Shown here: piece by piece, positions 5,886 through 8,362 of the stretch | Position numbering within the stretch: the first letter of the stretch is position 1 | Layout of the letters: each line of letters opens with the position of its first letter | Source: Pseudorhodoferax sp. Leaf267 | Lineage (GTDB): Bacteria > Pseudomonadota > Gammaproteobacteria > Burkholderiales > Burkholderiaceae_C | Reading direction: 5' to 3' | DNA: 64,000 nucleotides | Assembly: GCF_001422405.1 (NCBI RefSeq) | Contig: NZ_LMMV01000022.1 | Location: forward strand, 362,628-426,627 | Program-made: the position numbers and the translations under genes | Notes under the pieces: generated by a model | What the model was told of the DNA's origin: nothing | The model's database searches: none | The model's input: only the letters and a program-made list of their open reading frames with translations

Positions 5886-6643
5886 ACACTCCCCCTTCGC
5901 GCACGGCGCTGTCCGTCAACGTCAACAAGGTCGCGCTGGTGCGCAACACGCGCCACCTGGGCATCCCCAGCGTGCTGCGCGCCGCCGAGCTGTGCCTGGC
6001 CGCCGGCGCCCATGGCATCACCGTGCACCCCCGGCCGGACGCACGCCACATTCGCACCGACGACGTGCACGCGCTGGCGGCGCTGATGCAGGCCTGGCCC
6101 GAGCGTGAATACAACATCGAAGGCAACCCGTTCCAGAACCTGATGGACTTCGTACGCCAGGTGCGGCCCACGCAGTGCACCTTCGTGCCCGACAGCGAAG
6201 AACAGTTCACGAGCGACCACGGCTGGAACCTGGCGCAGGACGGCGAGCGCCTGCGCCCGCTGATCGCCGAAGCCCGGGCGCTGGGCGTGCGCGTGAGCCT
6301 GTTCATGGACCCGGATGCGTCCGCCATGGCCGCCGCCCGCGACCTCGGGGCTGACCGCGTGGAGCTCTACACCGAGCCCTACGCCGCCGCGTTCGGTCGG
6401 CCCCAGGGTGCCAGCGTGCTGCAGGCCTTCGCGCAGGCCTCCCGCGCCGGGGCCGCGGCCGGCCTGGGCGTGAACGCGGGCCACGACCTGAACCGCGACA
6501 ACCTCACCGCCTTCCTCGCGGCCTGCCCCGACGTGCAGGAGGTCTCCATCGGCCACGCCCTGGTCGCCGACGCGCTCGAGCTGGGCTACGAGGCCACCGT
6601 CAAGGCCTACCTGGCCTGCATTGCCGACGCGGCTGGGCGCTGA
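5882..6643 (+). CDS. pdxJ: Pyridoxine 5'-phosphate synthase
   Basis: PdxJ condenses 1-deoxyxylulose 5-phosphate with 3-amino-2-oxopropyl phosphate, the last ring-forming step of DXP-dependent vitamin B6 synthesis. The 253-residue TIM-barrel protein starts with [12 protein letters not shown] (residues 11-22), has the conserved [13 protein letters not shown] at 45-57, and a further active-site segment NIEGNPF around 78-84. The ATG sits within the recO stop codon and the TGA overlaps the acpS start. The pdxJ-acpS pair is a common proteobacterial arrangement. Confidence 0.96.
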
Positions 6644-7053
6644 TGGTCTACGGGATCGGCACAGACATCTGCGACGTGCGGCGCATCCGCACCAGCGTCG
6701 AACGCCATGGCGAGCGCTTTGCCGAGAAAGTGCTGTCGGACGCCGAGCTGGCGGTCTACCGCCGCCGCGGCGAGCGCTGGCCCGACCGCGGGCTGCGTTT
6801 TCTGGCCACGCGCTTCTCGGCCAAGGAGGCCTTCAGCAAGGCCATCGGCATGGGCATGCGCATGCCCATGACCTGGCGCGCCTGCGAGATCGCCAACCTG
6901 GCGAGCGGCCAGCCCGTCATCGTGCTGCACGGCGAACTGAAAGCCTGGTTCGAAGCCAAGGGCCTGCGCGCGCACGTGACCGTGACCGACGAGACCGACT
7001 ACGCCGCCAGCTTCGTGATCGTCGAAACCCTTGAACCTAGATCCGGCAGTTGA
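6643..7053 (+). CDS. acpS: Holo-[acyl-carrier-protein] synthase, 3' end supplied by a repeat
   Basis: AcpS transfers phosphopantetheine from CoA to apo-ACP. The Mg-binding residues are visible as Asp8 in GIGTDICDV and Glu62 in [12 protein letters not shown]. The 136-residue length is near the family norm. The last seven codons and the stop (from about 7030) lie inside the left terminal repeat of the element at 7033-7272, so the present C-terminus Leu-Glu-Pro-Arg-Ser-Gly-Ser is not native. Removing the element would let the frame continue into a stop beyond the nagZ start. The catalytic core is intact, so the enzyme is probably functional. Confidence 0.95.
7033..7052 (+). repeat. Left terminal inverted repeat of the MITE-like element
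   Basis: The 20 bases beginning GAACCTAGATC and ending GGCAGTTG are the exact reverse complement of 7253-7272. This copy encodes the last residues of AcpS and part of its TGA stop. Confidence 0.85.
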
Positions 7054-7252
7054 CCGCTTCGTTTGATTCGAAGACCCGCATGCCTATTGGCCATTTCTCT
7101 TCCGAATGCGCTCGCCTTCCCGGTGAGCGCGCTATGCACCCGATGGCACCGCGCTCGACGCGCCATGCGGCGTTGCTCGTCCTTGCGCACAGTAGTGCGC
7201 TGCGTCCTCACGCTTTGCCTGGCACGCCGATCACGGCACCCTCGAGCGCATC

Positions 7253-7272
7253 CAACTGCCGGATCTAGGTTC
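7253..7272 (-). repeat. Right terminal inverted repeat of the MITE-like element
   Basis: Exact reverse complement of 7033-7052. It ends seven bases before the nagZ ATG, so the sequence now in the nagZ ribosome-binding position comes from the element; only a weak AGG (7267-7269) is present there. Confidence 0.85.
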
Positions 7273-7279
7273 TGACCCC

Positions 7280-8362
7280 ATGCACCAGCACGCCCCCCTG
7301 ATCATCGACATCGCCGGCCTGGAATTGACTGCCGACGACCGCCACCGCCTGCGCCACCCACTGGTCGGTGGCCTGATCCTGTTCGCCCGCAACTGGCAGG
7401 ACCGTGCCCAGCTCACGGCGCTGTGCCGCGCCGTGAAGAAGCTGCGTCCCGACCTCTTGATCTGCGTGGACCACGAGGGCGGCCGCGTGCAGCGCTTCAG
7501 GACGGACGGCTTCACGCACCTGCCGACCATGCGTGCACTGGGCCGGATGTGGCTGCAGGGCCAGAGCAAGACCCCGGGCGAGGCCGCCATGCAGGCCATG
7601 GGCGCGGCCACGGCCTGCGGCTATGTGCTGGGCGCCGAACTGCGCGCCTGCGGCGTGGACTTCAGCTTCACACCCGTGCTGGACCTGGACCATGGCGAGA
7701 GCGGCGTGATCGGCGATCGCGCCTTCGCGCGCGACCCGCGCGTGGTGACGGTGCTGGCACGCTGCCTGATGCAGGGCCTGCTGCAGGCCGGCATGGGGAA
7801 CTGCGGCAAGCACTTCCCCGGCCACGGCTTCGTACGCGCCGACTCGCACACCGACATGCCGGTCGACCGCCGCAGCCTCAAGGCCATCCTGGCCGACGAC
7901 GCCCAACCCTACCGCTGGCTCGACACGGTGCTGACGGCCGTGATGCCGGCCCACGTGGTCTACCCCAAGGTCGACAGCCGGCCGGCCGGCTTCTCGCAAC
8001 GCTGGCTGCAGGAGATCCTGCGCGGGCAGCTGGGCTTCGACGGTGCGATCTTCAGCGACGACCTGAGCATGGCCGGTGCGCGCGTGATCGACGGCCAGGC
8101 CGTGGGCTACGCCGAGGCTGCGCTCGCCGCGTTGCAGGCCGGCTGTGACCTGGCGCTGCTGTGCAACCAGTCGCTGGACGGCGGCGCTGCACTCGATGAG
8201 CTCGTCGATGGCTTGGCACAAGCGCAGATCGAGGGCCGCTGGCAGCCCCGCGAGGCATCCGAGGCGCGCCGGCAGGCCCTGCTGCCTGCCACGCCGGCAT
8301 TGGAATGGGATGCGCTGATGACCGCGCCCGCCTACATGCAGGCGCTGTGGAAGCTGCCCTGA
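7280..8362 (+). CDS. nagZ: Beta-N-acetylhexosaminidase NagZ (glycoside hydrolase family 3)
   Basis: Cytoplasmic enzyme that removes N-acetylglucosamine from anhydromuropeptides in cell-wall recycling. The 360-residue protein has the substrate-binding segment VDHEGGRVQRF (residues 63-73), the KHFPGHG loop (177-183) carrying the catalytic His, and the nucleophile motif SDDLSM (259-264). Length agrees with the proteobacterial family (about 340-360). It closes the lepA-to-nagZ run, but the element at 7033-7272 now separates it from acpS and leaves a poor ribosome-binding site, so its expression may have changed. Confidence 0.96.
   Translation: MHQHAPLIIDIAGLELTADDRHRLRHPLVGGLILFARNWQDRAQLTALCRAVKKLRPDLLICVDHEGGRVQRFRTDGFTHLPTMRALGRMWLQGQSKTPGEAAMQAMGAATACGYVLGAELRACGVDFSFTPVLDLDHGESGVIGDRAFARDPRVVTVLARCLMQGLLQAGMGNCGKHFPGHGFVRADSHTDMPVDRRSLKAILADDAQPYRWLDTVLTAVMPAHVVYPKVDSRPAGFSQRWLQEILRGQLGFDGAIFSDDLSMAGARVIDGQAVGYAEAALAALQAGCDLALLCNQSLDGGAALDELVDGLAQAQIEGRWQPREASEARRQALLPATPALEWDALMTAPAYMQALWKLP

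Follow-up and report, generated by a model that had tools for sequence, protein, structure and literature searches.

The window, a stretch of 64,000 nucleotides from Pseudorhodoferax sp. Leaf267, contains the genes acpS and nagZ on its plus strand, separated by a short segment bounded by inverted repeats. We assign the following features to this junction.

6643 to 7053, plus strand: acpS, 136 amino acids.
7031 to 7035, plus strand: left copy of the target duplication, TTGAA, which fits the pattern NTNAN taken from relatives.
7036 to 7269, no strand assigned: non-autonomous element (MITE), 234 bp, ends CC...GG, placed by its terminal repeats, by copies in the genome, and by duplications in relatives.
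7036 to 7052, plus strand: left terminal inverted repeat, CCTAGATCCGGCAGTTG, 17 bp.
7036 to 7269, minus strand: the strand with a conserved single-stranded fold (structured RNA or single-stranded DNA), from a z score of -11.2 and covariation.
7134 to 7163, minus strand: 3' arm of the long internal helix P2, alignment A1 columns 112-141.
7222 to 7251, minus strand: 5' arm of helix P2 in the minus-strand fold, alignment A1 columns 19-48.
7253 to 7269, minus strand: right terminal inverted repeat, 17 bp, the perfect complement of the left repeat.
7270 to 7274, plus strand: decayed right remnant of the target duplication, TTCTG, sharing two of five letters with the left copy.
7280 to 8362, plus strand: nagZ, 360 amino acids.

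The original prediction, made from the letters of the window, was that a 240-bp MITE-like segment had been inserted here. Its perfect 20-bp inverted repeats (7033-7052 and 7253-7272) are indeed complementary at 20 of 20 positions; ACCC is present two bases outside both of their ends, as stated, and seven bases lie between the right repeat and the nagZ ATG at 7280. The left repeat was said to encode the last AcpS residues together with the stop codon; it does encode the residues, but it holds only two of the three TGA bases, the A lying one base beyond it. Comparison with relatives moves the ends of the element inward from the 20-bp arms, to CC...GG at 7036-7269, and assigns the outer three bases of those arms (GAA and TTC) to the target-duplication stretch.

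In the present sequence, AcpS extends into the left repeat. Bases 7036-7053 encode the residues PRSGS and the stop codon TGA (7051-7053), so that the acpS frame runs through CTT GAA, then five element codons, then TGA. In five of five congeners, the junction is empty and consists of the acpS TGA, two nucleotides (AG), and the nagZ ATG. Because these sites are empty, we conclude that the segment between acpS and nagZ is an insertion. Congener AcpS (5/5) is 130 amino acids long and ends in EKN, which differs from the ending supplied by the element. The same comparison does not support the prediction that the ancestral genes overlapped, since acpS stops two nucleotides before nagZ in all five congeners. 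The empty site contains the 5-mer CTGAA, which fits the target pattern of the family and is centered on the acpS stop, and the TGA within the present left flank, TTGAA, is now one base out of the acpS frame. In a tblastn search over 20 loci, with approximately 1.5 kb fetched on each side, no element copies were found beside acpS or nagZ in congeners; the only loci matched were those of the acpS-nagZ copy itself. The element would have entered either exactly at the stop codon of acpS or next to it, after which AcpS would read into the left repeat and stop at its edge. The simplest reading of these junctions is that the element inserted at the stop and that the tail of acpS then underwent a change of one base, with the TGA of the element serving as the replacement stop codon; alternatively, the element may have landed beside the stop rather than at it.

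The genome that carries the window (6.53 Mb in 27 contigs) contains three copies of the element, including the one between acpS and nagZ, at 100, 84, and 79% identity. A scan for repeat ends with up to three mismatches returned three forward and three reverse ends, and the reversed control returned none. The two further copies, together with the empty sites in congeners, bear out the predicted MITE-like insertion that supplies the end of AcpS. Neither outcome that would have contradicted the original prediction was seen, be it the 240-bp segment at this junction in all relatives with no second copy elsewhere or a native AcpS C terminus in relatives that already ends in this sequence. By crude gene calls, a likely start codon also follows within about 12 bases of each of the two further copies (L002 1503-1736 and L003 1510-1743), and in L002 it belongs to a response-regulator-like gene. 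As expected of a MITE, the element is short and lacks a transposase gene (234 bp, with no frame clearly constrained as protein), the acpS-nagZ element has terminal inverted repeats, and copies are dispersed, with three in this genome and at least 40 aligned in one relative. Target-site duplication is seen at the level of the family; at the acpS-nagZ copy, TTCTG agrees with TTGAA at only two of five letters, and we therefore regard this duplication as decayed. Together, it is well supported that the acpS-nagZ segment is a MITE insertion of IS1380 type that has rewritten the end of AcpS, both for the insertion and for the family.

Four of the five congeners carry copies. By DNA similarity, with at most two candidates scored per genome, 85 of 399 genomes of the family contain element matches, and another repeat variant was found in 19 of 150 genomes with up to one mismatch. 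Named hosts among the matches listed include Roseateles, Paucibacter, Pelomonas, Herbaspirillum, Thiocapsa, Thiorhodococcus, and Thiocystis. Copy number is highly variable, with none found in many genomes and approximately 130 estimated in one family genome (G028), which has more repeat ends than any other genome seen (134 forward and 127 reverse, up to two mismatches; control 0); there, scoring 40 of 275 candidates gave 43 element matches. Among plasmid records, 2 of 72,556 matched (Caballeronia and Polaromonas), and none of 50,697 phage records did. A left-end scan of the named genomes gave at least 117 stretches, and in the 80 listed stretches that we examined, both ends were found in 62, while 18 were unpaired, several of them at contig ends. 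Among these 62 listed pairs, 27 were 234 bp long and 16 were 237 bp, and a 256-bp form also occurs among the listed length variants. Deletion derivatives with both ends (L185 and L228, 116 bp; L223, 122 bp) and expansion derivatives (L169 and L203, 264 bp; L199, 318 bp; L171, 422 bp) have duplications matching at four or five of five letters. In several cases (L084, L092, and L110 in G028, and L196), a copy is immediately next to the end repeat of a second copy or of a subfamily, for example with CCTAAATCCGGCAGTTG beside the insertion, and the elements apparently nest within or border one another. Flanks are shared among L087, L096, L101, and L111, and between L093 and L109, all in G028, from which the element has probably also inserted into another dispersed repeat.

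The 5-bp flanks are identical in 36 of the 62 listed pairs, agree at four of five letters in 14, and agree at three or fewer in 12, one of which is cut by a contig end. Relatives thus define a duplication of 5 bp with the pattern NTNAN. Our initial reading, a 3-bp TNA duplication, was replaced once the flanks of relatives had been compared, and the suggestion that ACCC is the target duplication gives way to the same 5-bp pattern, represented at the acpS-nagZ copy by TTGAA and TTCTG. For landing sites, we used 122 paired copies, of which 115 had 400 bp or more of flank on each side and 108 remained after copies with shared flanks were collapsed. According to gene calls by a crude codon-usage script trained on the window, 38 of the 108 duplications have a called stop codon at their center, 47 copies are noncoding, and 23 lie within called frames. 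Against a null of non-disruptive NTNAN sites for the 85 copies outside frames, the 38 stop codons compare with 23.5 expected from 1.5-kb flanks (P 2e-5), 30.4 from 400 bp (P 0.007), and 31.9 from 200 bp (P 0.02); a same-center null (84 copies) gave 24.7, 31.9, and 33.3 (P 8e-5, 0.02, and 0.06). With 38 observed and 23.5 to 33.3 expected, we therefore rejected the idea that insertion is aimed at stop codons and attribute the preference mostly to the NTNAN motif and selection. The gene that stops at such a site ends at the left end of the element in 32 of the 38 cases, as acpS does, so the folded strand lies opposite to the mRNA of that gene. Orientation is thus skewed 32 to 6 at stop codons (P 2.4e-5), compared to 27 to 19, with one undefined, at the other noncoding sites.

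Partner insertion sequences of IS1380-like type were found in relatives. We examined nine near-full-length partner transposases for ends (L126 being the same insertion as L118, and L133 the same as L116). Eight of the nine have CCT...CAGTT-type ends, 1630-1744 bp apart; the exception is L128, for which credible ends were not found. The end scores were 30 or more, compared to 26.5 for the best of 60 shuffled controls (three loci). A perfect 5-bp NTNAN duplication flanks five of the nine, and the other three partners with ends match at four, two, and one of five letters. Ends common to the element and to autonomous insertion sequences are thus found in relatives only (8/9), and both ends of IS1380-family type (the CCTAGATTC variant, ISEcp1-like) and duplications of approximately 5 bp are present. 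The ends of L132 are less element-like (13 and 12 of 17), while those of a Polaromonas plasmid insertion sequence (L125) agree with the element repeats at 16 and 14 of 17. On this plasmid (CP087967.1, Polaromonas sp. P1-6), an element copy and the complete insertion sequence, whose ends are nearly identical to those of the element, lie approximately 360 bp apart. The L118 and L125 transposases score above the cut-off of PF13701, and their best family is NF033539 (IS1380), at 156.8 and 155.5 bits, below its curated cut-off of 180; the L116 transposase reaches 140.6 bits against IS1380.

No IS1380 transposase was found in the five genomes of the window genus that were tested, and no L118-type transposase in any of the six, the genome that carries the window included. 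In G028, only fragments of a partner-type transposase were found (three of nine candidates scored), and its over-cut-off IS1380 transposase (L112) does not lie between such ends. Across the family, on the assumption that the element and transposase searches drew the same 399 genomes, element matches occur in 12 of the 19 that have a close transposase match (E 1e-50) compared to 73 of 380 without (P 6e-5), and at an element threshold of E 1e-10 in 9 of 19 compared to 46 of 380 (P 3e-4). The association is weak when all 41 transposase matches are counted (14 of 41 compared to 71 of 358; P 0.04), and 7 of the 19 genomes with a close transposase match lack an element match. Of note, one genome rich in the ends of this element has an IS1380 transposase over the cut-off (L115, G040:C32) whose ends are CCTGAATCCGTGA and which is flanked by AAAAT on each side; it apparently represents a different IS1380 group. 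Because its ends match those of the partner insertion sequences, the element is most likely mobilized in trans by an IS1380-like DDE transposase.

The element folds strongly, with a minimum of -141.9 kcal/mol on the minus strand (z -11.2) and -120.6 kcal/mol on the plus strand (z -7.7), each relative to 200 dinucleotide shuffles. To describe the fold, we aligned diverse copies on the minus strand; 68 of 113 passed a similarity filter, and with L197 and L230 left out, 66 make up alignment A1. The fold comprises 65 pairs, with 18 in the terminal repeats, 28 in the long internal helix, and the remainder in smaller helices; 95.2% of cells are paired, and 45 of the 65 pairs show two-sided changes. 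Covariation was 0.437 compared to 0.163 in shuffled alignments, with 0 of 500 shuffles as high, and slid registers gave at most 0.095. This structure was derived from the A1 copies themselves, and hence we assembled an independent, distant set of 24 copies, found with the A1 model in genomes drawn across the class and the phylum. These copies range from 40 to 65% GC, have a mean identity of 57%, and in 22 of 24 cases are 233-239 bp long. Their covariation is 0.540 compared to 0.202 when shuffled, measured on copies aligned to the model, an alignment that leans toward the structure.

Mismatch types distinguish the two strands. On the minus strand, at 60 pairs, we counted 461 G-T and 40 A-C cells compared to column expectations of 465 and 145, while slid registers gave 328-529 G-T and 273-491 A-C; the distant set, at 65 pairs, gave 164 and 26. 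Relative to column make-up, G-T is thus not depleted, in contrast to A-C and the other mismatches. The pair 75-83 runs opposite to the trend, with eight A-C and no G-T. Because A-C here is G-T on the other strand, the constraint acts on the minus strand as a single strand, which fits RNA or single-stranded DNA but not a symmetric DNA palindrome. Rfam gave two weak matches in 6600-7700, both below the gathering score and outside the element, with none on the element itself, and no match on seven further loci (five with distant copies, L118, and L125).

Searches with the fold model, in which at most five candidates were scored per genome, matched 66 of 369 genomes of the class at E 0.001 or better, and by our count from the listing, 22 of the 369, in 19 families, exceeded 100 bits. 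In the phylum draw of 398 genomes, 25 passed E 1e-10; four exceeded 100 bits, all in the same class, and outside the class none did, the best match reaching 60.3 bits. Anything scoring under 100 bits, which covers all matches found outside the class in this draw, could be a generic hairpin, and we excluded such matches from the members. The model R1 also matches elements of approximately 150 to 165 nt at 60 to 73 bits (L296-L300, L302, L305, and L306), several of which have perfect inverted repeats of other sequence and are possibly a different repeat class with a similar hairpin.

Two explanations would make the segment something other than a non-autonomous transposable element with a noncoding interior. 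If acpS and nagZ shared a native, vertically inherited attenuator or RNA element in their operon, a strong fold exactly between two operon genes would be accounted for, but this reading is refuted by the empty site in every congener, by copies at other loci, and by target duplications, and we give it essentially no weight. The other is a small protein of approximately 62 amino acids whose frame would close with the TAG in the right repeat: 61 of 68 nonredundant copies have no stop in this frame, compared to 7 to 38 of 68 for the other frames, an ATG stands at the same place in many copies, 234 and 237 are multiples of three, and third codon positions are the most variable in the conserved part (98-217). 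However, over 187 pairs from 43 copies of 234 bp, its nonsynonymous-to-synonymous ratio is 0.90 to 0.99 compared to 0.72 to 1.13 for the other frames, the two lowest ratios belong to minus-strand frames, and third positions are the least variable in the variable part (47-98). With a ratio near that of the other frames and a third-position pattern inconsistent between the two parts, we rejected the small protein as very improbable.

The remaining alternatives concern what the fold is. An ordinary MITE would have a functionless palindromic interior derived from its founder and kept symmetric by gene conversion or by a need for matched ends. MITEs with palindromic interiors are common, the placement at stop codons is mostly explained by NTNAN and the loss of disruptive insertions, and the G-T count alone equals the column expectation. 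Gene conversion or a cruciform requirement is strand-symmetric, yet A-C is depleted while G-T is not (461:40 and 164:26); in addition, the two-sided changes extend over 45 of 65 pairs, and the length has been held at 233-239 bp in 22 of 24 distant copies despite a mean identity of 57%. We consider this explanation improbable. Less easily set aside, though still unlikely in our judgment, is that the conserved fold works as single-stranded DNA, on the lagging strand or as a transposition intermediate, and not as RNA. Conservation specific to one strand fits one strand of DNA equally well, G-T pairs are tolerated in single-stranded DNA too, and no sigma-70-like promoter site was found in 6900-7400. 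Against a role as single-stranded DNA, covariation spans the interior and not the ends alone, and IS1380-type DDE transposases are thought to use double-stranded ends.

We conclude that the segment is probably a non-autonomous IS1380-type transposable element whose minus-strand fold is most likely a structured RNA that helps the element to persist. Such an RNA would arise when the element is transcribed on the minus strand, and it may help the element to persist, for example through a role in transcript processing, in transcript insulation, or in transposition. A role inside the mRNA of the genes that end at the element is not favored because, in 32 of 38 cases, that mRNA carries the other strand. 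We tentatively put forward a stronger proposal, which is possible but which we would not yet favor: that these elements constitute a family of mobile noncoding RNAs that extends over Burkholderiales, Chromatiaceae, and other Gammaproteobacteria, in which the minus strand encodes a structured RNA of approximately 234 nt that spans the element with its repeats and on which the spread of the element depends. This RNA would then be the conserved core, and the letters of the repeats would drift jointly in both arms, perhaps tracking local IS1380-type transposases.

Short dispersed bacterial repeats that are folded and lie near genes include ERIC, RUP, BOX, and NEMIS/Correia, which have other sequences, hosts, and duplications. 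We recognized no description of the present element in the open-licence literature. The closest likeness in the ends is to ISEcp1, for which the accessible part of one source gives the IRL as CCTAGATTCTACGT and 5-bp direct repeats such as TCATA (PMC7864471). The first nine letters of this IRL are the CCTAGATTC variant of the end of our element, whereas the direct repeat TCATA given in that text does not fit NTNAN (PMC7864471). In contrast to ISEcp1, the element has no transposase gene, is 234 bp long, differs in the inner half of the repeat, and carries a conserved fold. In the fold, the likeness is to the MRSC candidates, which, in the accessible part of their source, are multi-copy and covarying, sometimes lie near a transposase, and are suspected to be selfish, with the choice of RNA or DNA left open (PMC11109978). 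The candidate MRSC-65-2 is described there as a single long covarying stem that carries a conserved UYCCGG repeat, with more than 20,000 representatives (PMC11109978). Compared by description only, our element is unlike it in that the repeats form a closing stem, inside which lie a long helix, smaller hairpins, and a stretch that varies, although the two may be related. The effect on AcpS has precedent in QMITE2 of Coxiella burnetii, which lies mainly in 3' untranslated and intergenic positions, because one in-frame copy of QMITE2 supplies the C terminus of a protein (PMC5896051). QMITE2 is 150-190 bp long with duplications of 7-11 nt, and the accessible part of its source states no fold that is conserved across families (PMC5896051).

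MITEs are usually seen as decayed transposons without content. The interior of this one bears signatures by which functional RNAs are recognized, namely heavy two-sided covariation and wobble pairs tolerated on one strand only, both seen in distant copies that differ by 43% on average. For annotation, the element accounts for odd C termini and stop codons at operon junctions. If the fold is an RNA, this would be a transposable element family defined by the noncoding RNA that it carries between matched ends, and it would become testable whether a structured RNA aids the spread of a DNA transposon or its tolerance at the ends of genes.
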